Positions 30,940 to 42,300 of a stretch of DNA of 64,000 nt are shown one piece after another. Origin of the DNA: Fretibacterium sp. OH1220_COT-178. Lineage in GTDB: Bacteria; Synergistota; Synergistia; Synergistales; Aminobacteriaceae. The first letter of the stretch is position 1. Each line of letters opens with the position of its first letter. The notes below the pieces were generated by a model. It was given only the letters and a program-made list of their open reading frames with translations, made no database searches and had not been told where the DNA came from. The translations under genes were made by a program, and so were the position numbers. The stretch is taken from NCBI RefSeq assembly GCF_003860125.1, contig NZ_RQYL01000003.1:1-64000 (forward strand), read 5' to 3'.

Positions 30940-32700
30940 ATGATGCGTTGGATCATTTTGGCGTTGTCCTTGGGCGCGTCCCTTACGTCCCTGGTTCATG
31001 GGGTGTTTGTGCTCTTCGGCTTTCTGGTGGCTGGAGGGGGCTCCTCGCCCTGGGTGTCCGGGGGCCTGCCGATCCTCTCCGCATTTTTGGCCTTGATCGG
31101 GGGGATTGTCGCTTTCAACTGCAGCAAGGTCGGGATCGCCTTTTTGGGCCTCGCCGCTCTGCTTTGTCTCTTTGCTCCTGTCGATGTCTGGATCTACGGG
31201 AGCGTCTATCTTATTGCCGCGATGCTCGGCTTCTTCCTTCCGCGCCGTTCCGATCTCCTGGACTACGAGGATTACGATTACGACGACCAGGATTGTGCGG
31301 ACGACGACGAGGAGCTCCCGATCGATTTTCCGCCGAGACGTCATGAGCGTGCCGCCCGTATTTCGCTTTCCCATCAGGAGAGGGAAAAGCGCATTCCTCT
31401 TTCGACCTCCCCGGAGGAGCCCCCGAAGGTACGTCGCAGAACCTCCAAGACCTGTCCTACCTGCGGAGCCAGCGTTGCGATCGATCACCGCTTTTGCCCG
31501 ACCTGCGGCTCTTCCCTGCATATCCCGACTGTGCCGGAGCCCGAGGAGGCCTTGAAGACCGAGGTCCCGGTCCAGCCCGACGCAAGCGAGAGGGGGGCGG
31601 AGGCTGAATCTGCGCCCTGGAGTCCTAAAGCCGCGTTCGTTTCCCCCGCTGGGGAGAGCTCTCCAAGCTCTCCGGATCTCGGCGAAGATGACGATTCGGA
31701 GCCCGAACAAGTCGGGCAGGAGGGGCTTTTCCAGGAGGAGGAGATGGAGATTCCCCTTCCCCATAAGGTATTCGTCAAGCCCTTGAGAGAGGAGACGCTC
31801 ATTCCGACGCGTCCCTTGAGCATTGATCCCGATACCTCTTATCAGGAGTTTTCGCGGTATACGCGTCGGAGAAAGCGGCGCACTCGTCCTTTGGGGCGCA
31901 GGATTTTGGGCTTGCTTCTCCTGTTTGCGGTGGTCGGGGGGGGGACATGGTTCCTGTTGGGGCTGCGCAAGCTGCCCGAGGACAAGCTCCCCGTACTGCC
32001 GCCTGTTTCTCAGGTCGAGGTGCCTCCGACTCCGAGATCCATCGACGTCGTTGCCCAGCCCCTCACAAAAAACGGCACCTCGGACGTGAGCGGCGAATTG
32101 CCGTCCCTTCCTTCTTTGGGTGAGCTCCCGGATCGAGGGATCGTCACCGGTTCGAACGTCAACCTGAGGGAGGAGCATTCGACGGCCTCGAAATCCCTGA
32201 CGCGTCTCGGACTGAACGCACAGGCCGAACTTCTGGAGAGCTGGACCGGCGTCTCGGGGACTCTCTCCGGTGTCTGGTACCGCGTTCGTTCCGGAGGCAA
32301 GGAGGGATGGATTTACGGACAGTATTTCCTGCCGCTAGGGAAGAATCTTCCCAAAGGGTACACGGATGCCCTGTTGCACTCCTTCGGGGGAAGCAGAAAC
32401 GAGGCGGCGGCGAAGTTGGGGCGTCCGGCGCAGAACAAGGCCGCATCCTTGGAATGGCAGGGGCTGACGCTGTCCCTCAAGGACGACGCCGTCAGTCGGC
32501 TGCAGGTCTCCTCTTCCCGATACCCCCTGCGGAACGGGGTGACGGTGGGGATGACCCAGGACGTGCTTTTCAAGACGATGGGGTATCCCTCGGCGCTTGC
32601 CTCCGGTCAGTTGCGCTACCTGGAGGAGCCCAAGCGCGGTGTGGCGGTCCGCATCGGCAAGGACGGCAAGATTACGGCGATTACGGTGGGCAGTTTGTAG
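30940..32700 (+). CDS. Membrane zinc-ribbon and SH3-domain protein
   Basis: A 586-aa protein I cannot name. In order: about four hydrophobic segments (residues 1-100), an Asp/Glu/Tyr stretch (about 107-125), a zinc ribbon CPTCGASVAIDHRFCPTCG (about 172-190), a long low-complexity acidic linker, one membrane span (about 325-345, after an RRRKRRTRP basic patch), then an SH3b-like domain (NVNLREEHSTASKS; WYRVRSGGKEGWIYGQYF) and two small repeats rich in KxGRP/VGMT. This suggests a cytoplasmic zinc-binding middle and an outside SH3b domain touching the cell wall. It is convergent with the giant TPR gene. Start ATG 30940 or 30943. Confidence 0.7.
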   Translation: MMRWIILALSLGASLTSLVHGVFVLFGFLVAGGGSSPWVSGGLPILSAFLALIGGIVAFNCSKVGIAFLGLAALLCLFAPVDVWIYGSVYLIAAMLGFFLPRRSDLLDYEDYDYDDQDCADDDEELPIDFPPRRHERAARISLSHQEREKRIPLSTSPEEPPKVRRRTSKTCPTCGASVAIDHRFCPTCGSSLHIPTVPEPEEALKTEVPVQPDASERGAEAESAPWSPKAAFVSPAGESSPSSPDLGEDDDSEPEQVGQEGLFQEEEMEIPLPHKVFVKPLREETLIPTRPLSIDPDTSYQEFSRYTRRRKRRTRPLGRRILGLLLLFAVVGGGTWFLLGLRKLPEDKLPVLPPVSQVEVPPTPRSIDVVAQPLTKNGTSDVSGELPSLPSLGELPDRGIVTGSNVNLREEHSTASKSLTRLGLNAQAELLESWTGVSGTLSGVWYRVRSGGKEGWIYGQYFLPLGKNLPKGYTDALLHSFGGSRNEAAAKLGRPAQNKAASLEWQGLTLSLKDDAVSRLQVSSSRYPLRNGVTVGMTQDVLFKTMGYPSALASGQLRYLEEPKRGVAVRIGKDGKITAITVGSL

Positions 32701-32728
32701 CGCCGCGTCGGCATTCTCTCACCCCCCC

Positions 32729-32767
32729 AAAAGCAGGTGACCGCCTTATTGGCGGGCACCTGCTTTT
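32729..32767. terminator. Bidirectional terminator between convergent genes
   Basis: An 11-bp stem AAAAGCAGGTG (32729-32739) / CACCTGCTTTT (32757-32767) encloses a second stem CCGCC/GGCGG. A-run and T-run flank it, so it works in both directions. It overlaps the last codons of the giant TPR gene. Confidence 0.9.
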
Positions 32768-35700
32768 GTCTGTTGGATCAGGGAGCGTACCTGGGGAATA
32801 AAACGCTCGACGTCGGGGTTCTTTTGGAGTTTCAGGCTTTCCTGGTACTTTTCAAGGGCCTCGGAATAATTCTGGGCTCTGTAAAGGTCGTTTCCCTCCT
32901 GGACCAGTTGTTTGGCCCGAAGGGTGGTTCTCAGTCGCTCTATGAACTCCTTCAACTTGTCGTTCCTGCGGAGCTCGTAACTGGCCTCGTATTGCGCCAG
33001 GGCCCGAACGTACTCCTTTTTCTTGAAGAGCTCGTTGGCCTCTCGAATAAGGGCATCGGCCTGAGCGGAGCCCTCGGCTTTCCTGTCGTTCGATGACTCT
33101 GCATCGGGGCTGTAAAGCTCCTCCTCCATCCTGGAGGAGCCCTCTTGAGGCACGTCCTCGGACGCGGGCCTGGCGGGCTGGAGAATCCGGTTCAGGCGTT
33201 CGAGTTTCTCGAGCAGAGACTTGTTTTTAGGGGTCAGAGCGAGTGCCTTTTGGTAGTGTTCAAGGGCCTCGAGGGGTTTTTTGCCCCTGAGGGCGGCATC
33301 CCCCCTCCGGATCGCCTGTTCGGACGCCTCGAGCTCGGCTTTCCTCACGAAATCCTCGGCCGTTTTATTGGGGGCAAGAGCGAGGCTTTCCTTGTATTTT
33401 TCCAGTGCATCGGCCGGCCTTCTGCGTTTGACCAAGGCCTCGGCTTCGGCCCGCAGCTTCCGGGCCATTTCCTCGCGCTGTTCCTTTTCCCGCTTCATGA
33501 CGAGGGCCTCCAGTTCCTCGTCATGCCAGAGCAGAAGGCTCTCCTTGTAACTTTTCAGAGCCTCTTTCGGTTTTTTTGCGTTCATTAGGGCATCGCCCTT
33601 CTTGCGAAGGGCCTGGGCCTTTTCCCTGAACTCCCTGTCCCCCTCGAGACGGTCCTTGAGGAGATCGATGTAGGTGGCCAGATAGGGGTCATTCAGATGA
33701 CTCAGACTCTGCTCATAGAGATCGATTCCCTCGGCGATGCGTTTTTTGTCGATGCTCGCATTGGCCCTCCTCCTCAGGGAGAGGGCTGCGTTTCTTTTCT
33801 CGTCCTCCTCGAACAGGGACTTCGAGAGCTTTGCGATATCGAGGCTGACGGCCTCGTTGGGCTCGAAGAGAAAACTGTTGCGCAACTGAGCGAGGGCTCC
33901 GACCTTGTCTCCCGCCGCCATGGAAATTTCGGCGGCGGTCCTCAGGCGCAGGGCTTCGTGACGGCGGTTCTGAACCTCCCTTTCCCGAAGCTCAAGGGCG
34001 TGGCCCATCCTCTCCGTTGCCGCATCCTCCCACAGTTGGGATGCGCGCTCAAGGTTCGCCCTGGCGGCGCTCAATGCGTCCGTCCGGAGCTCCATGGAGC
34101 CTTCGGCCAAGAGACGGGCAGCCTTTGTTCGCCTGTCGAGTTGTGTCCTCATCTCGGGCAGTCCGGCCTCGATCTCCGAACTGAGAGGATCGAGGGTCGA
34201 GGCCCTTTCTCCCGTCCGTATGGCCTTGGCGAACTTCCCCTCCTCCCAGAGGGCGCGGGCCTGAAGCCACAGGCTCCAGGCCTGAGCGCGCCGGCGGCTC
34301 TGCTCCTCGTCCTTTTTGTCCGCAACGGCCAACAGCGGTGCTTCCACCCTGCCGAGCGGTATGTCGCGGCGGTCCTTGACGGTCACCGCGACCTTTCCCG
34401 TTCCTGTCCGGAGGCGGCGAAACACGGCAACGTTGTCTCGAGCCTTGACCAGCACGGTGTCGGCGTCCGATTCCCAAAGGTAACGGAGGGGCTCGGCGGG
34501 GAGGGGGCGGACCTCCGCATAGAATTCCACCTCGTCGGCGGTGCTCAGGCCCTGGGCCTCCACCAGGACCTTTCTCGCGTCGTCCCAAGACTGAACGGTG
34601 GCGTTCGCGGACGCCTGCACGATGCGGAGGTTCCATGGTTCGGCCGTCGTCGAGATTGTGCTGGAGGCCAGGGGCCCCCGTGCTCCCGGTTGCCGGACCA
34701 CCAGAGTGGCCGTGACGGGAGAGTCGTCCGCCGGGTAAAAACGAAAAGCCCTTCCGCCGTCGACGGCCTGCTGCTCTTTGACGTTGCCCAGGATCCGCCA
34801 CTCGAAGGCCAGATCCTTTGCCGTTGTCCAGGGGCCTTCCCCGACCCTGAACGTTGTCCGTTCCCCAACGAGGGGGATCTGAGGAGTCGTTCGAAGCTTC
34901 AGAGGTTCGGCGAGAAGGGCTGTGCGGCGTTGCCGCTCGGAGCGGCGCACGTCGAGTCGGCCGAGGTGGGCCTGTACGTCTGGAGAGACGACGAGGGAGA
35001 GGGAGGCCCTCAGCTTCTCCATCGCCTCCTCGAGCCTTTCTTCCCGCTCGAGGAGGATCCCCTCTTTGTAGAGGGATGAAGCCTGTTTCCGCCGGGCGGT
35101 TTGCTCGTCGATACGTCCTCTGAGAAGGCGGATGTCCGTTGAGACGGGGTCGGTCGGCCATACGGCATGGCTTTCGAGATAGAGCATCAGGGCCTGTTCC
35201 TCCCTGCCGGCGTCGAGGTGCTGCCCGGCCTTTGCGGAGAGTTCCGCGGCCCGTTCGATCCGTCCCTCCCGTTCCTGCAGGGCGTGTTCGATGCGGCGCA
35301 GGACCACCGGAAGAATGTCCAGGGAGGCGATATCGGCCCCCTGCCGTACGGCCGTAAGCGCCTCCGCCAGACGCCCCTGTCTTTCCAGCGTTTGGGCCGT
35401 TTCGAGGAGTTCGAGCGCCGCCGACTCGCGCACCTTCAAGTCCTCGAGACGCCGATCCAGGGCTTCGGCACGCTCCGACACCCTCTTGTCCTCCCATGCG
35501 GAAAGGGAGCGCCGGTAGCGGGCCTGGGCCTCCTCGAGATGTCCCTCCCTCTCGAGGGCGTCCCCTTCGCGGGCAAGGCGATCGGCCTGCTTTTTTCGCT
35601 CTTCGGCTCTGTCCAAAAGGGTTTTGACGCGTCGGACCGCTCGTTCGGTCCCCTCCTCCGCATACAGCTTCGACGCCTCGAGGTACTTTTCCAGGGCCTG

Positions 35701-37161
35701 GGAAAGCAGGGGGACGTCGAGCCGACCATCGGTGCCTTTGCGTTCCAGCTCGGACGCCTCCTCGAGAAGCGCCTCCGCGGTCGACCGGGCTCTTTGCCGG
35801 GCGTTCAGGTCCGACAGAATGCGTTTCTGATCCTGAATCGTCTCGTCCAAGGGCCAGATCTCCAGGGACTCCGCCATTTTCTTCAGCGCCCCTTCCAGTT
35901 CGCCCTGGGCCTCGAGCGCGAGGGCCGTGGCCCTTCGGGAACGGGCAAGCAGAAGCCTCTCCTCCCGGGCGCCTATCTTGCCCTCGAGGTCGATTTTTTC
36001 GGCGTTCAGTTCGGGGGTGAAGTTCAGACGAAGCCCCTGTTCGTACAGGCGCAATGCGGCATTCAGTTCCCCGCTCTTTGCGAGGCCCCGAGCCTCCTGA
36101 ACCAGATGGGACGCCTTCTGAATCCGGGTGTCCCGTTCCTCCAGACGGCCCTTCAGCCGGGATATGTCCTCCGACACCGAGGGATGCTCAAAGAGGCTGT
36201 AGGCCTGCAGGTATTGTTCGAGGGCCTCGTTCAGTTTGCCGTCCCTCCAGAGGGAGGCGGCCACGGAGGACAGCTCCAGGGATTCGAGGCTCTTGGCCTG
36301 AGCGGCGCGAAATCCGGCCAGTTCTCCTTGAAGAAAGCCGGGGTCGGCCCCTCCATCCAGAAGTTTGTCGGCTCCGCGTTCCGCATGAAGCAGGGCTGCG
36401 TCCGTCCGCCCTTTTTTCCGGAGGTCGAGGGCCTCCTGCCATAGCTTCCAGCCCTCTTCCAGACTACGGCTTCTGCGCAGATCCTCGATGGAGAAGCGGA
36501 TGTCGAAGCTCGCCTCGGCCCTTCCAAGCTCCGTGCCCTCCATGAGAAGGGAGAGAGCCACGTTCCCGATCCCGGGGGTTTCCCTGCGGACCAGGCAGGC
36601 CCGGGCATCCTGGGAGACGATCATCGTGCCCTCGTCCGGGATCCATTCGTATTGCAGGGCCGTTTGGGGCTCGGGGGAGAGCAGGGCCCTCATCTCGACC
36701 GTGTCCTCCATGGTCGTTCCGCGCTTCTCGATGGGGGATCGGGTTTGAGAATCCCAGACGAGGACGGGACTCTTTTGGGGGGAGCGGGCACGGATGGAGA
36801 GGTCGTAGGAGGCAGGGGAAACCGTGACCGAGCTGCGCGCCGCCTCGAGCCCTTCCGGATTCAGCAGGACGGCCGTAACCGTCAGCGGACGGGGTCTTGC
36901 CTCGTACTGAATGGCGTTGCCGTCCCGCGTCAGGAAACGTTCCCCCTCCCCGGACCAGCTCCAGCGGAGGGAATGGCGGTGATCTCCGGATTCGGGGAAC
37001 CGGGCCCGGACGACTACGGTCCCGCCCGGAACGGGCGAGACCGGCTCGGCGGTGAGAAGGAGTTTCACGGAGGAAGGGCTCTCCCCGGATTGGGGCCATG
37101 CCGCGGTCGTGCAGACGACCAGAAAAAGGAGGAGGGGGAGGAGCAATCTTGTTTTCTTCAT
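32746..37161 (-). CDS. Giant exported TPR protein with duplicated Ig-like/TPR module
   Basis: A 1471-aa protein with a signal peptide (TRLLLPLLLFLVVCTTA), so exported. A beta-rich region (about 25-230), a long helical TPR array (about 234-745), a second beta-rich region (about 749-945) and a second TPR array (about 947-1465) follow. The junctions align: GWKLWQEALDLRKKGRTDAA and AWSLWLQARALWEEGKFAKA. Each TPR unit is about 35 residues and often ends in a WP or conserved ALxxYxESL pattern. The same plan occurs once in the 633-aa paralogue encoded upstream. Last gene of a minus-strand operon with parA. Probably a periplasmic scaffold; function unknown. Confidence 0.75.
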   Translation of the reverse strand: MKKTRLLLPLLLFLVVCTTAAWPQSGESPSSVKLLLTAEPVSPVPGGTVVVRARFPESGDHRHSLRWSWSGEGERFLTRDGNAIQYEARPRPLTVTAVLLNPEGLEAARSSVTVSPASYDLSIRARSPQKSPVLVWDSQTRSPIEKRGTTMEDTVEMRALLSPEPQTALQYEWIPDEGTMIVSQDARACLVRRETPGIGNVALSLLMEGTELGRAEASFDIRFSIEDLRRSRSLEEGWKLWQEALDLRKKGRTDAALLHAERGADKLLDGGADPGFLQGELAGFRAAQAKSLESLELSSVAASLWRDGKLNEALEQYLQAYSLFEHPSVSEDISRLKGRLEERDTRIQKASHLVQEARGLAKSGELNAALRLYEQGLRLNFTPELNAEKIDLEGKIGAREERLLLARSRRATALALEAQGELEGALKKMAESLEIWPLDETIQDQKRILSDLNARQRARSTAEALLEEASELERKGTDGRLDVPLLSQALEKYLEASKLYAEEGTERAVRRVKTLLDRAEERKKQADRLAREGDALEREGHLEEAQARYRRSLSAWEDKRVSERAEALDRRLEDLKVRESAALELLETAQTLERQGRLAEALTAVRQGADIASLDILPVVLRRIEHALQEREGRIERAAELSAKAGQHLDAGREEQALMLYLESHAVWPTDPVSTDIRLLRGRIDEQTARRKQASSLYKEGILLEREERLEEAMEKLRASLSLVVSPDVQAHLGRLDVRRSERQRRTALLAEPLKLRTTPQIPLVGERTTFRVGEGPWTTAKDLAFEWRILGNVKEQQAVDGGRAFRFYPADDSPVTATLVVRQPGARGPLASSTISTTAEPWNLRIVQASANATVQSWDDARKVLVEAQGLSTADEVEFYAEVRPLPAEPLRYLWESDADTVLVKARDNVAVFRRLRTGTGKVAVTVKDRRDIPLGRVEAPLLAVADKKDEEQSRRRAQAWSLWLQARALWEEGKFAKAIRTGERASTLDPLSSEIEAGLPEMRTQLDRRTKAARLLAEGSMELRTDALSAARANLERASQLWEDAATERMGHALELREREVQNRRHEALRLRTAAEISMAAGDKVGALAQLRNSFLFEPNEAVSLDIAKLSKSLFEEDEKRNAALSLRRRANASIDKKRIAEGIDLYEQSLSHLNDPYLATYIDLLKDRLEGDREFREKAQALRKKGDALMNAKKPKEALKSYKESLLLWHDEELEALVMKREKEQREEMARKLRAEAEALVKRRRPADALEKYKESLALAPNKTAEDFVRKAELEASEQAIRRGDAALRGKKPLEALEHYQKALALTPKNKSLLEKLERLNRILQPARPASEDVPQEGSSRMEEELYSPDAESSNDRKAEGSAQADALIREANELFKKKEYVRALAQYEASYELRRNDKLKEFIERLRTTLRAKQLVQEGNDLYRAQNYSEALEKYQESLKLQKNPDVERFIPQVRSLIQQTKAGARQ

Positions 37162-37200
37162 TGGGCGTAGCGTTCCTTTCGTGTCCGGAAAGTGAAGAGC

Positions 37201-37623
37201 TCATAGAAGCCCGTAGAGCGTCAGGGTCCCCATCTCGTCCCATTTCAGGACGAATTGCACCGGTTCCCGAATTTGGACGCTGGTGCGGATCGGGCGCAGA
37301 AGCTCCCCGGGCCCCTCCAGAAGATAATAGGTGAAGCGGTTCCGGTCTGCGGTGCGAAACTCCTCTCTGAGGGAAACGAAGTCGAGTTCGAGGTGCCGGA
37401 TTTCGGTGCCGGCCTCGAGTATGGGACGCCAGGTCCGGCGGTCCTCTTCGGAGAGGATGGAGAGCAGCGCCGTCGAGAGGGGCGGCGTTTCGGCGGTGCC
37501 GAGGCCGCTCGTGTTGTCCTCCGGAGTCGCCGCGGAGTCGGCTTGGGATATCGGCCCCTCCTCCATTCGGACGACCCCCGTGCGCAGATAGTCTTTCAGG
37601 CTGGGTCTCGCTTTTCTAGCCAT
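37201..37623 (-). CDS. Small protein coupled to ParA
   Basis: A 140-aa cytoplasmic protein starting MARKARPSLKDYLRTGVVRM, with an acidic, Ser/Thr-rich middle (about 20-60) and a beta-type C-terminal domain ending GTLTLYGLL. I do not recognise the family. ATG 37623 lies inside the end of parA (8-base overlap), so the two are translated together. A short basic N-terminus is a common feature of proteins that stimulate ParA ATPases; a partner role is inferred from that and from the gene order. Confidence 0.65.
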   Translation of the reverse strand: MARKARPSLKDYLRTGVVRMEEGPISQADSAATPEDNTSGLGTAETPPLSTALLSILSEEDRRTWRPILEAGTEIRHLELDFVSLREEFRTADRNRFTYYLLEGPGELLRPIRTSVQIREPVQFVLKWDEMGTLTLYGLL

Positions 37624-38383
37624 GATGCTCGCACCTCTCGAGAAATTCTGTTGCAACCCGCTCGTAGTCGCGTGCTCCGTTGCTCGCCGGATCGTAGGCG
37701 AAGACGGACATCCCCAAACTCGAGGCCTCTATCAGGCTGACGTTCTGGCGGACGTACGAGGAAAAAAACAGATTGCCGAAGAAATTTAGGACCTCTCCGG
37801 CCACCTCCCGGGATATGAAGAGATTGGGATTGTGGCGGGTCATCAATACCCCCAGCAATGACAGACGAGGGTTCAGGCGCTCCCGGAAGAGGGGAATGGC
37901 TTCGTTCAGAAGCCGAAGTCCGGCCAAGCTGTAAAAACCTCCGTCCATGGGGACGAGCAGGCGGTCGGAGGCGGTGAGGACGTTTCGCGTAAAGACCCCG
38001 AGCTGAGGAGGGCTGTCCAGCAGGATGAAGTCGTACCGCTCCGGGGCGACGAGGTCCAGGGCCTCGCGAAGAAGGGAGTCCTGGCCTATGGCACCCTCAG
38101 GACGCAATTCCACCATCACCAGGTCCAGAGTGCTGGGGACGACGTCCACTCCCTCCCGGCAGACCACCACCTCGTCCCACCGGGCGTCTCGGGAGAGCAG
38201 GTCGAAGATGTGCGGCGTTCCCGGAGCGACGGAGATGCCGAAACTGGCGCTGAGGTTGCTCTGCGGATCCATGTCCAGAACGGCGACCCTTTTGCCCGCC
38301 CTCGCCAGGGCGACGGCAATATTCTGGCAGGCGGTAGTCTTCCCGACCCCGCCCTTCAGATTGCAAAAACCTACGGTCAGCAA
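37616..38383 (-). CDS. ParA/MinD-family ATPase
   Basis: A 255-aa ParA-type ATPase that dimerises with ATP and may bind nucleoid DNA. Deviant Walker A KGGVGKTT (residues 9-16), Walker A' LDMDPQSNLS and LLDSPPQLG are intact. No ParB, parS-like or oriC genes are near; the neighbours are exported TPR proteins and the 140-aa protein, so plasmid or chromosome partition is unlikely, and positioning of an envelope structure is more plausible. The start is TTG 38383 (MLTVGFCNLKGGVGKTT) with GGAGGG seven bases upstream. Confidence 0.88.
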   Translation of the reverse strand: MLTVGFCNLKGGVGKTTACQNIAVALARAGKRVAVLDMDPQSNLSASFGISVAPGTPHIFDLLSRDARWDEVVVCREGVDVVPSTLDLVMVELRPEGAIGQDSLLREALDLVAPERYDFILLDSPPQLGVFTRNVLTASDRLLVPMDGGFYSLAGLRLLNEAIPLFRERLNPRLSLLGVLMTRHNPNLFISREVAGEVLNFFGNLFFSSYVRQNVSLIEASSLGMSVFAYDPASNGARDYERVATEFLERCEHHG

Positions 38384-38419
38384 AGGAATCCCTCCCCAAC
38401 GGAGCAGAAAACGGCCAGT

Positions 38420-40321
38420 CTACTTTCCCTGGTCGGCGGAGGAGAGATCGCGGCTGGCGGCGGGAAGCGATTTCTCGATCTGCTTGATGAATTTTTCGAC
38501 CTCCGCATTGGGATGGACGGTCAGGCTCTCCTTGTATTTGGCCCAGGCCTGTGGGACATGCCCCTGCTTGTAGAGCGAGTTGGCCTCCTTGATGAGCTTG
38601 TTCGATGCCTGGACGGCCTCGTGTTCCTTTAGGGAGCGCTCTATCTTGCGTATCCACCCGCCCAGGGCCTGATCCTGCGAGATGGCGAAACTTTTGCGAT
38701 ATTGGGCCAGGGCCTCCCTGTAGCGTTTCTCTCCGTAAAGGGTGTCCCCTGCGCGCAGAAGACGTGCAGCATCGGCCTTCGTGCCGATTCCGAAATCCTC
38801 GGGGGTGCGAACGACCGAGTTTTGAGGCAGTGCGACCGTCTTTTCGATGTAGGCGATGCGCTTCTCCGCGTCCGGGGAGGGCCACATGAGCATGCTCTCA
38901 CGAAATCTCAGGAGCGCCTCGGCCTCGTTTTTTTTCCTGTACTGCTCCACTCCCTCCCGGAAGAGGAGCGCCGCTTGTCTCTTGCGCTGGTTGAGGATAT
39001 CCTCCAGCCTCTTGACGTGTTGGCCGAGAGCTTCGTCCGGGTTGAGCTCCAAACTCGATCTGTAGCTTGCGATGGCCTCTACGATCCTGCCGCTTTTTTC
39101 CTGCTTGTCTCCCTGAATGACCAGCTTGTCCGCCTCGGCGACGAGGGCCAGGCGTTGGGTGATGCGGGCCACGCGCTCCTCGACGGCCTCGGAGGGAACC
39201 AACTTCATGGCTCGGTTGTAGTATTCCAGAGCCTCCTGGAACTGTCCTTCCTGGTCGTAGGCGGATGCCGTATCCCTCAGCCACTCCGCCTCCTGACGCT
39301 GCAGGCGGATGGCGTTGACGGCCTTCTCGAGGGCCTCGATCTCCGTGTCGATATCCGGCATGGGCCACGCGATCTTGGCCCGCCGATAGGTCTTCAGGGC
39401 TTCGGCAAGCGCGTTCCTGTTCTTTTCGCCGCTTCCCCTCTCCTGAAGCTCCAACGAGCGCAGCACCCGGCCATAATTGACGCTCATGGCCTTGATGCCT
39501 CCGGAGATGTCGGGATCCTCCGGGACGGCTGCCGCGGCGCGTTTGGCCGTGTCCATGGCCTTGGCGTAGTCGCGCTGCTCCCACAGGGACTCCGCCTCCA
39601 ACCAGGCCTCCCACGCTTTTTTCTGACGTGCGGAGTCCTCCAGACGGGAGGCGGGCAGTGTGATGGGGACGGTTTTGGAGGATGTGCCGAGGGTTATGCC
39701 CGCCGCATTGGAGACCCGCACCGTGACCTCGGCGTCCCCGACCTCGCTGCGCGCGATGGCGACCTCCGGCGAGCCGTCGTTGCTCAGGATGGCCGTCGAG
39801 GCGTCGGCGCCCCAGGAGAAATGGATCTCTCCGTCGTAAGGCGGCGTGAGCTCGGCCCGAAATCGAATGGGACGGCCGCTCGGGAGATCCTCCGTCGGAC
39901 GTTCCTCCTTCGTGAGGACATCCCAGAGCAGGAGGGGGGCGGAGTCCAGCTTGACGATGCCGACCTCGAAATACTGGGGCTGAAGCGCGATGTCGGAGGA
40001 CGCGACGACCTGTCCCTCTTGATTCCGGGCCAGGACCCTGACCTCGATCGGAAGGGGGTTCGTCGGCGTAAATGCGCATTCGGCGCCCTCTTTCCTCAGG
40101 AATATCGGTTTGACGTCACCGCTGACGGCCCACTCGAAGAGCATCTTCTGGGAGACGGCCGTCCCCCCCAGGGAAAGCACGATCTCTCGTCCGACGTAAA
40201 CGTCCTCCTTCGGCATGACCTGGAGTTCCGAGGCCAAAACGGCGAGGGGGGAGGAGAGAACGAGAAGCAGCAGAGTCCCAAACGCGTGCAGAGCCTTGGT
40301 GCGAAGTTTTCGAGAGCCCAT
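38420..40321 (-). CDS. Exported TPR protein, paralogue of the giant TPR protein
   Basis: A 633-aa protein with a signal peptide (LHAFGTLLLLVLSSPLAVLA), two Ig/PKD-like beta regions (about 28-220) and a TPR array (about 225-625). The domain junction AWEAWLEAESLWEQRDYAKA aligns with both modules of the 1471-aa protein, and an LLLWD motif in the second beta region matches VLVWD there. ATG 40321 has AAAGGAGG seven bases upstream. First gene of the operon; parA follows after 36 bases. Likely periplasmic or surface-linked. Confidence 0.75.
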   Translation of the reverse strand: MGSRKLRTKALHAFGTLLLLVLSSPLAVLASELQVMPKEDVYVGREIVLSLGGTAVSQKMLFEWAVSGDVKPIFLRKEGAECAFTPTNPLPIEVRVLARNQEGQVVASSDIALQPQYFEVGIVKLDSAPLLLWDVLTKEERPTEDLPSGRPIRFRAELTPPYDGEIHFSWGADASTAILSNDGSPEVAIARSEVGDAEVTVRVSNAAGITLGTSSKTVPITLPASRLEDSARQKKAWEAWLEAESLWEQRDYAKAMDTAKRAAAAVPEDPDISGGIKAMSVNYGRVLRSLELQERGSGEKNRNALAEALKTYRRAKIAWPMPDIDTEIEALEKAVNAIRLQRQEAEWLRDTASAYDQEGQFQEALEYYNRAMKLVPSEAVEERVARITQRLALVAEADKLVIQGDKQEKSGRIVEAIASYRSSLELNPDEALGQHVKRLEDILNQRKRQAALLFREGVEQYRKKNEAEALLRFRESMLMWPSPDAEKRIAYIEKTVALPQNSVVRTPEDFGIGTKADAARLLRAGDTLYGEKRYREALAQYRKSFAISQDQALGGWIRKIERSLKEHEAVQASNKLIKEANSLYKQGHVPQAWAKYKESLTVHPNAEVEKFIKQIEKSLPAASRDLSSADQGK

Positions 40322-40647
40322 GAAAAATCCTCCTTTGTAAAGACAAGAATGCATATTGTTCTCGCTGAAACGGGCGACCGGACCGGGAAGCCGTTGTCCC
40401 CTCCATCGGGCTTTCAGGCAGGGGCCCGAGAACGGCCCCAGAATGGCAAAAACGGTTCAAAGCCTTCCTCAGCCCGAAGATTTTCGAAATGCGAGCCCCA
40501 TGTCTTTGATTTTACGTCATCTTCAAAGGAAAATCCAACGTTGCCTGTCCTGAAAAAACAGGCTGTGATACAGTATGTGGGTTCTTCCTGCCCGAGAGCG
40601 GGAACATCCCCGGAAGGCTGCGGCCTTCCAGTGAGGAAGTGGAGAGC
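40322..40647 (+). other. Intergenic region, divergent leaders, no gene seen
   Basis: A 326-base gap between divergent genes. It holds an inverted repeat GCCTGT/ACAGGC (40543-40548 with 40558-40563) and a perfect 7-bp hairpin with a TGCG loop (40612-40618 with 40623-40629) right before the ribosome site of the M20 gene. No convincing promoter or coding frame was found. Confidence 0.5.
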
Positions 40648-42300
40648 GTGCCGTCCTTCAAGTACTCGCGTCCCTGTTTTTCTCCGATGGGAGAGCGTGT
40701 TTACGAACTGATGCTGAGCCTCGTCGCCATTCCCAGCGTGACCGGATCGGAGGACGGCGGCGAGAATCGCTGTGCCCGATTCATCCACGATTGGCTTGCC
40801 CGCATCCCCTATTTTCGGGACAGGCCGTCCGACCTGCGCCTGGTGCGCTTGGAGGGGGATCCCCTGGAGAGGATGGCGGTCTGTGCGCTCCTCAGGGCCT
40901 CTCGCGAGACCCGCAGGACGGTGATCCTCACCGGGCACTTCGACGTGGTGGACACCGACATCTGCGGGCCGCTGCGTCCATGGGCCTTCGATCCGGAGAC
41001 CTACACCGATCGTGTTGCCGGGCTTCGCCTGGCCGACGATGCGAGGCGTGATCTCGAATCGGGAAACTACCTTTTTGGGCGGGGCGTATCGGACATGAAG
41101 ACGGGGATTGCCCTCAATTTATGTCTGATCGAGGATTATGCGTCCGAAAGGGACATCTTGGACTTCAACGTCCTGCTCCTTCTCGTCCCCGACGAGGAAG
41201 GGGACTCGGCGGGCATGCGCCTGTCCATCCCCACCCTGCTGGAGCTCCAGGAAGGGGAGGGGCTCGACTTCGTCGTCTGTGTCAATACGGAGCCCGTCCT
41301 GGAGCGTGGGGGCCCGGGAATCTACTACGGTACGATCGGAAAGATCATGCCTCTTTTCCTCTGTGTGGGGCGGGAAACTCACGTTGCGGACTACACCGAG
41401 GGCCTGAATTCGACGTTGATCGCATCCTACCTCAACCTTGCCGTCGAGGGCCATGGAGGGAGGGCGGAACGCTTTGGGGGGCAGAAATTCCCCCCCGATT
41501 GCTGTCTGCGCATGAGGGACCTTCGGGAGCGCTACGCCGTCACCCTGCCGGAGCGCACCGTCGTCTACTACAACTGCCTGACCGTAAGCCGAACCCCTGC
41601 GTCGATTCTGGAGAGCATGAGGGCCGATGCCGAACGGGCGCTTCGTTCCGCCTTCGAACATGTGGGGAACCGGGACTGGCCGATCCGGGTGCTGGACGTG
41701 GAGGAACTCGTCCGCAGGGCGGCGGAGGCCGCGGGAACGTCTCGGGATCGCTTGACGGACGAACTGCTCTCCGGGCTTTCCGCATCGGACGAGCGGGACC
41801 GCAACGTCGAATTTCTGTCGCGATTGCTGGATAGGACGGGAGAAAAGGGCCCCTTGGTCGTCGTAGGGTTTCTGCCGCCGTACTATCCCTCCCGCTTGAA
41901 CGAGGGACGGACCGTCTGCGAACGTGCCGTCCGTCGGGCGGCCGAGGCCGTTCGGCTTTCGCTGGGGAAGCGGGGCTGGAGCTTTTCGGAGACCGAGATC
42001 TTTCAGGGGATATCGGATCTGAGCTATATGGGCTTTCGAGGAAGGGCGGAGGATATCGCCCCTGTGGCCGCCAATATGCCTCTGTGGGGCCGCGGCTATG
42101 ACATCTCCCTTGAGGACCTGAGGCGCCTGGACATTCCCTCCGTCCTTCTGGGGCCGATGGGGGCCGACGACCATAAAATTACCGAGCGGGTCGAGCTGGA
42201 CTACTCCATGAACGTCCTGCCCGAGGTGGTCAAGGAGTTCTTGTCCGTCGCCGTGCGCGAGTCCTTCACCGAGGATGGAGAGGGCCTGAAACGTCCTTGA
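40648..42300 (+). CDS. M20 family peptidase, RocB-like
   Basis: A 550-aa zinc peptidase-fold protein related to RocB, the arginine-utilisation protein of Bacillus. IPSVTGSEDG near residue 32, the metal motif TGHFDVVD, GRGVSDMKTG and PDEEGDS are the M20 landmarks. It is longer than usual M20 enzymes, as RocB is. The start is uncertain: GTG 40648 (after GAGGAAGTGGAG), GTG 40639 or ATG 40690. A role in peptide or amino-acid catabolism is inferred. It stands alone, with a 237-base leader separating it from the next gene. Confidence 0.82.
   Translation: MPSFKYSRPCFSPMGERVYELMLSLVAIPSVTGSEDGGENRCARFIHDWLARIPYFRDRPSDLRLVRLEGDPLERMAVCALLRASRETRRTVILTGHFDVVDTDICGPLRPWAFDPETYTDRVAGLRLADDARRDLESGNYLFGRGVSDMKTGIALNLCLIEDYASERDILDFNVLLLLVPDEEGDSAGMRLSIPTLLELQEGEGLDFVVCVNTEPVLERGGPGIYYGTIGKIMPLFLCVGRETHVADYTEGLNSTLIASYLNLAVEGHGGRAERFGGQKFPPDCCLRMRDLRERYAVTLPERTVVYYNCLTVSRTPASILESMRADAERALRSAFEHVGNRDWPIRVLDVEELVRRAAEAAGTSRDRLTDELLSGLSASDERDRNVEFLSRLLDRTGEKGPLVVVGFLPPYYPSRLNEGRTVCERAVRRAAEAVRLSLGKRGWSFSETEIFQGISDLSYMGFRGRAEDIAPVAANMPLWGRGYDISLEDLRRLDIPSVLLGPMGADDHKITERVELDYSMNVLPEVVKEFLSVAVRESFTEDGEGLKRP

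Follow-up and report, generated by a model that had tools for sequence, protein, structure and literature searches.

The window analyzed here is the 64,000-nucleotide stretch formed by positions 1 to 64,000 of contig NZ_RQYL01000003.1 from Fretibacterium sp. OH1220_COT-178. A four-gene unit at 32746–40321 encodes, in order on the minus strand, an exported 633-residue tetratricopeptide repeat (TPR) protein (TPR633), a ParA/MinD-family ATPase, a 140-residue protein and a giant exported TPR protein of 1471 residues. The order and sizes of these genes, and the overlap of 8 bases between the middle two, are as read from the sequence in the original prediction, which suggested that all four genes might be one system built on the TPR proteins with the 140-residue protein as the ParA partner. 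Comparison with other Synergistota genomes bears out the partnership through near-perfect co-occurrence and adjacency, a natural fusion and an N-terminal motif like those of ParB and McdB. It does not bear out the four-gene system, because the pair and the TPR genes each occur without the other.

The parA and partner genes share exactly 8 bases (37616–37623), and gaps of 36 and 39 bases separate TPR633 from parA and the partner gene from the giant TPR gene, respectively. A purine-rich stretch precedes the start of each of the four genes. A scan for sigma-70 consensus promoters found none; the tight spacing suggests that the four genes are co-transcribed. The giant TPR gene ends in a strong hairpin that probably terminates both the unit and the convergent gene at 30940–32700 (+); a scan for consensus terminators listed only a plus-strand part of it. 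The features of the locus are collected in Table 1.

Table 1. Features of the four-gene unit and the evidence for each. AF2, AlphaFold2; pLDDT, predicted local distance difference test.
Feature	Position	Strand	Evidence
TPR633, exported 633-residue protein	38420..40321	-	Pfam TPR; AF2 model; Foldseek
parA, 255-residue ParA/MinD-family ATPase, TTG start	37616..38383	-	AAA_31 E 1.5e-42; structure 1wcv E 1.7e-42
ParA partner, 140 residues: N-terminal motif, flexible linker, C-terminal domain of ~88 residues	37201..37623	-	found only beside or fused to module ParA; AF2
Candidate N-terminal docking motif of the partner, MARKARPSLKDYLRTGV, residues 1–17	37573..37623	-	conserved in 26/26 separate partners; AF2 helix 9–15, low confidence
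C-terminal domain of the partner, residues 48–140	37204..37482	-	pLDDT 81–89 from residue 51; profile search
Giant TPR, exported 1471-residue protein	32746..37161	-	about two head-to-tail units of the 633-residue kind; sequence self-comparison
Strong hairpin	32725..32768	-	RNA fold -41.6 kcal/mol, z -5.5

The module ParA

ATPases of the ParA type move DNA or cellular structures into position. The one encoded in the unit, here called the module ParA, matches AAA_31, and its Walker A (KGGVGKTT), A' and B motifs are all intact. The deviant Walker A with its signature lysine (KGGVGKT), A' and B are invariant across 42 module ParA sequences, and the closest solved structure is that of T. thermophilus Soj. 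The comparative sample consisted of 188 Synergistota genomes, 62 of which hold 63 copies of the module ParA at 53% identity or more; Soj-type proteins reach at most 42%, which leaves a clean split. Since the nearest plasmid and phage ParAs are only ~41% and ~36% identical, respectively, the module ParA is, by sequence comparison, a distinct group seen only in Synergistota. The ParA tree splits into two clades. In one, made up of g2, g6, g8 and f6-g27, TPR633 does not lie next to ParA; in the other it does, apart from G106.

A canonical rsmG-soj-parB set is present in the same genome on another contig (C25), and its ParB has a different N-terminus from the partner, starting MAERKALGKGLSALLG. 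C25 also carries, alongside soj-parB, the only parS-like site of this genome, which has 2 mismatches. No ParB gene adjoins the four-gene unit and no parS site is found nearby, as had been noted from the window alone.

In G085, the fused ParA-partner gene is directly followed by a gene (L056:8932–9864, -) for a second ParA-family ATPase, of 310 residues and 26% identical to the module ParA.

The partner protein

Single-sequence searches with the 140-residue protein identified homologues in 59 genomes, all within the 62 that carry the module ParA, and searching with a C-terminal domain profile brought the count to 60. The other 126 Synergistota genomes gave no convincing match to the partner domain, with one weak match interrupted by a stop in G057 (E 0.005). 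Of the 63 ParA copies, 60 have the partner domain on their own contig at a distance of at most 1.14 kb; the remaining three sit at contig ends. In G041, ParA is at a contig end and the partner is on the matching contig end; in G045 and G081 the module locus runs off the contig. G079, an apparent exception with ParA and no partner, was resolved when a partner with a long Glu-rich linker was located. No complete locus has parA with the partner absent, one of the two observations that the original prediction had named as its possible undoing. The distribution of the two genes thus identifies ParA and its partner as an obligate gene pair in Synergistota. Because homologues exist in about 60 genomes and the ratio of nonsynonymous to synonymous substitution (dN/dS) is 0.11–0.25 for the whole protein, the 140-residue open reading frame is not a chance one. 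Purifying selection is strongest on the C-terminal domain (dN/dS 0.05–0.16).

The partner begins with a basic segment that carries an invariant motif, continues with a variable linker and ends with a domain of ~88 residues in which W65 and F89 are invariant. The linker ranges from ~20 to >300 residues and is Lys/Ala-rich in g2 and Glu/Pro-rich in g10. In the AF2 model the C-terminal domain is confidently predicted with the order helix-helix-strand-helix-three strands (HHEHEEE), and a helix at residues 9–15 of the N-terminus is predicted at low confidence. The net charge of the C-terminal domain runs from neutral to strongly acidic (+1 to -13). The partner had no match in Pfam, NCBIfam, PHROGs or PDB sequence searches, and Foldseek with its model returned nothing below E 0.3 in PDB or BFVD. 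No homologue was detected in the plasmids, phages and viral contigs searched. A scan of genome contigs with the partner alignment returned 10 loci, all 10 in Synergistota metagenome-assembled genomes, by strict peptide patterns that could miss distant relatives elsewhere.

Two variants of this plan were observed. The f6 partners (L053–L055) have an extra segment of ~100 residues between the motif and the C-terminal domain that is conserved in the genus and has no significant Pfam match. The g2 linkers (L105:5090–5662, L106:4182–4700) are Lys/Ala/Pro-rich and histone-H1-like, and might bind DNA themselves, unlike the acidic g10 linkers.

N-terminal motif and natural fusion

The motif (K/R)RPSLK(D/N)YLxTG is located at the N-terminus of all 26 separate partners (score 31–41), where ParB and McdB have their ParA-docking peptide. 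In genus g10, ParA and partner are fused into one reading frame of 359–503 residues in 34 genomes; 22 of the fused tails were inspected, and the remaining fusions follow from the equal open-frame lengths of the ParA and partner matches. None of the 22 inspected tails has the motif; their best score is 1.7, compared to a shuffled median of -3.7 and a 95th percentile of 3.9. G079 forms a long basal branch of g10 in the ParA tree, has separate genes and keeps the motif as DRPSLRGYLSTG. Loss of the motif upon fusion would be expected if it serves mainly to recruit the partner to ParA. The loss is not proof, as it also fits a motif that binds something else made unnecessary by fusion. The literature searched contained no description of a ParA-partner fusion that had lost its docking motif.

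The exported TPR proteins

TPR633 has a signal peptide (assigned by eye), two Ig-like β domains and a TPR solenoid, and its model has only generic TPR and Ig matches by Foldseek. The giant TPR, which is confined to some genera, likewise has a signal peptide (assigned by eye) and TPR matches. Its halves match each other with E 1e-18 and match TPR633 with E 6e-35, so that it resembles a tandem double of the TPR633 plan (Ig-like part plus TPR part).

The pair and the TPR genes come apart in both directions. ParA and partner are present without TPR633 in g2, g6, g8 and g27, and G106 has TPR633 unlinked. TPR633 is found in 62 of the 188 genomes, 17 of which lack the module ParA, and TPR genes without ParA occur in g11, g12, g16, g17 and g19 and in some g10, g13 and g15 genomes. 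Conserved linkage of all four genes, the check set in advance, was therefore not observed: co-occurrence is broken throughout g2, g6, g8 and g27 on one side and g11, g12, g16, g17 and g19 on the other. TPR633 and the giant TPR gene directly adjoin without ParA in G092, G095, G101, G102 and G104. G098 has a gene fossil, a decayed ParA between intact TPR genes (L078:9461–9778; tblastn 2.7e-10) with no partner. Judged by gene content, the TPR genes are dispensable for the ParA-partner pair.

In one clade TPR633 lies directly upstream of parA in 44 loci, 43 of which were measured (gaps of -25 to 206 bp) and one of which, in G099, was seen at a contig end. ParA presence requires 8 changes on the TPR633 tree, at least 5–6 of them forced by supported branches, and its branching order resembles that of the ParA tree, a pattern that fits joint inheritance. 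Most simply, an ancestor of the clade already had the pair behind TPR633, and its descendants repeatedly lost the pair but kept the TPR gene. There may be a clade-specific functional tie between the pair and TPR633, because parA and TPR633 stayed adjacent in these 44 loci. The TPR proteins are exported, and ParA and its partner are cytoplasmic, which places them on opposite sides of the membrane. To touch the cytoplasmic ParA the TPR proteins would need an adaptor, and the operon encodes no transmembrane linker or membrane adaptor.

Proposed mechanism

In M. xanthus, a ParB peptide sits at the edge of the ParA dimer (PMC12462528). The residues of this site were mapped onto the module ParA through a HMMER alignment, which pairs Y81 with F60, E82 with D61, D110 with D87, V116 with L93, E117 with R94, L150 with L128, L152 with V130, L155 with R133, L187 with L165 and L192 with L170. 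The ParB-docking positions are mostly kept in the module ParA (F/Y60, D61, D87, L93, L128, L165 and L170). Among separate ParAs most of the positions keep their character, the exceptions being the equivalents of E117 and L155. The ParA D87 position is always Asn or Ser in the fused proteins, and the separate ParA of G079 already has Asn.

We assign a probability of about 0.62 to the reading that ParA and the 140-residue protein form a self-contained, lineage-specific two-component spatial module of the ParA/MinD type with a new partner family. The steps are drawn from the known ParA/MinD family (PMC10241942, PMC12204374, PMC12462528). ParA would dimerize with ATP and bind the nucleoid nonspecifically. 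The partner would use its N-terminal helix (RPSLKDYL) to dock on the ATP-bound ParA dimer, in or close to the ParB-peptide site, and once docked would trigger ATP hydrolysis. Its flexible linker and C-terminal domain would hold a cytoplasmic cargo, which would thereby be positioned or partitioned. The pairing of ParA and partner is what the genome comparison shows; the docking site, ATPase stimulation, nucleoid binding and cargo binding we infer by analogy with the characterized systems. The fuller proposal of a new Synergistota ParA positioning system that combines a new partner domain with a new cargo (perhaps chemosensory, flagellar or, in one clade, TPR-linked), and in which a covalent fusion replaces a trans-acting docking peptide, is tentative and falls somewhat short of even odds.

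Several observations weigh against the two-component spatial module. The L155 pocket position is Arg in all separate ParAs, and docking therefore cannot be identical to that of ParB; a pocket retuned against cross-talk with Soj-ParB would fit the changes at the E117 and L155 positions. The docking-site changes in fused ParAs give no support for relaxed docking, because they partly predate the fusion, several being present in the separate G079 protein. If the motif were needed for ATPase stimulation, the fused forms would lack that too. Of the two DNA-binding arginines of B. subtilis Soj (named as in PMC3778016), the R189 position is kept as Arg or Lys in ~80% of module ParAs, a point in favor of the module, and the second, R218, is Ser in 85%. 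With the R218 equivalent lost, nucleoid binding by the module ParA may be changed or absent.

Alternative explanations

The four-gene system of the original prediction, in which ParA, its partner and both TPR proteins position or count a TPR-built envelope structure, would account for the long-lasting adjacency of TPR633 and parA and for the similar trees. It is unlikely nonetheless, given a pair that does without TPR633 in g2, g6, g8 and g27 or is unlinked from it in G106, TPR633 genes without ParA in 17 genomes, adjoining TPR genes with no ParA or, in G098, only its fossil between them, and exported proteins in an operon with no membrane adaptor. Type Ib partition cassettes combine a small ParA with a small downstream gene whose product has a basic N-terminal tail. 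The layout of the locus matches, and plasmid proteins at ~41% identity are among the closest ParAs from outside Synergistota, as would be expected of a chromosomally captured DNA-segregation cassette with the partner as a small centromere-binding protein carrying a ParA-activating tail. The partner argues against this origin, because it is not ParB, is not a recognized DNA-binding protein and was not found in the plasmids or phages searched. Its C-terminal domain is not predicted to be ribbon-helix-helix or helix-turn-helix and has no such Pfam match, it is neutral to strongly acidic, and positions 37000–41000 contain no iteron-like array, just weak chance-like repeats. We regard a captured cassette as unlikely.

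Soj-type ATPases can work as regulators, so the partner might instead modulate ParA as a switch that controls transcription or replication with no positioned cargo; in keeping with this, no gene for a cargo accompanies the pair in every genome. Library searches and the AF2 model revealed no DNA-binding domain in the partner, and such a switch seems improbable, although the ParA-partner fusion does not discriminate it from a positioning module. A more specific form of the spatial module would serve chemosensory arrays or flagella in the manner of PpfA-TlpT and ParC-ParP. CheW is present in 62 of 62 module genomes and flagellin in 61 (the exception is G037), and CheW, flagellin and the module are all absent together from G028, the only g2 genome that lacks the module, and from the f6 genera g28 and g29. 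The CheW association has a Fisher p of 1.6e-9 by genome and 0.013 by genus, neither corrected for phylogeny, and chemoreceptor and GGDEF/HD-GYP genes occur near ParA in g2 and g8. However, many chemotactic genomes lack the module, independent contrasts are few, the module genes lie outside che and fla clusters, and the partner has no CheW-like domain. Chemosensory or flagellar machinery as the cargo is thus a weak lead rather than a finding, and we consider this form rather unlikely.

Relation to known systems

Other ParA/MinD partners dock through a basic N-terminus, which favors a docking role for the motif; residues 1–20 of McdB, for instance, are necessary and sufficient for docking on the ParA-type ATPase McdA (PMC12204374). 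The Synergistota pair resembles McdA-McdB in combining a ParA-type ATPase with a dedicated small partner specific to it, and in a partner with a basic N-terminal docking segment (a candidate one here), a low-complexity linker and a cargo-binding end (a putative one here) (PMC12204374, PMC11321042). It differs in that no similarity was found between the partner sequences and in that genera with the module, such as g2 and g9, lack microcompartment shell genes. ParABS (Soj-Spo0J) shares the ParA fold, the Walker motifs, most residues of the ParB-docking pocket and a short hydrophobic-basic motif at the N-terminus of the partner, but the module partner has no ParB/Srx domain, no parS is nearby and the genome has its own soj-parB elsewhere. 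PpfA-TlpT and ParC-ParP dedicate a ParA-like ATPase to a protein cargo, as is proposed for the module, and the module is found only in CheW-bearing genomes; it is, however, outside che clusters, and its partner has no chemoreceptor or CheW-like domain. The small ParA and small basic-tailed partner recall type Ib partition (ParF-ParG, delta-omega), but the partner domain is predicted to be mixed α/β and acidic to neutral, iterons are missing, and the partner was not found in the plasmids searched.

'Orphan' ParA/MinD ATPases without a known partner are common, and their partners are hard to find since they share no sequence. For this module, co-occurrence, fusion and motif together pin down the partner, and the new partner domain offers a handle for seeking the cargo by pull-down. 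The fused genus g10 is a natural experiment: because the candidate docking motif vanishes once partner and ATPase are joined, the role of the peptide in recruitment or catalysis is directly testable.

Neighboring genes and cargo candidates

No cargo gene is linked to the ParA-partner pair in all genomes. Microcompartments were rejected as a general cargo, because shell genes are missing from module-bearing genera: the shell family PF00936 is missing both from module genera (g2 and g9, for example) and from the module-bearing g10 genomes, and the association of shell genes with the module has a genus-level p of 1.0. Certain neighbors recur in g2 and g8 (L041, L044, L045, L047): chemoreceptor, thioesterase-like and GGDEF/HD-GYP genes lie on one side, and a gene for an MntP-like membrane protein lies on the opposite side. 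The f6 genomes have a gene for a secreted LmeA-like protein immediately upstream of parA, at ~10 bases (L054:7919–8725, +), and rpsD downstream of the partner.

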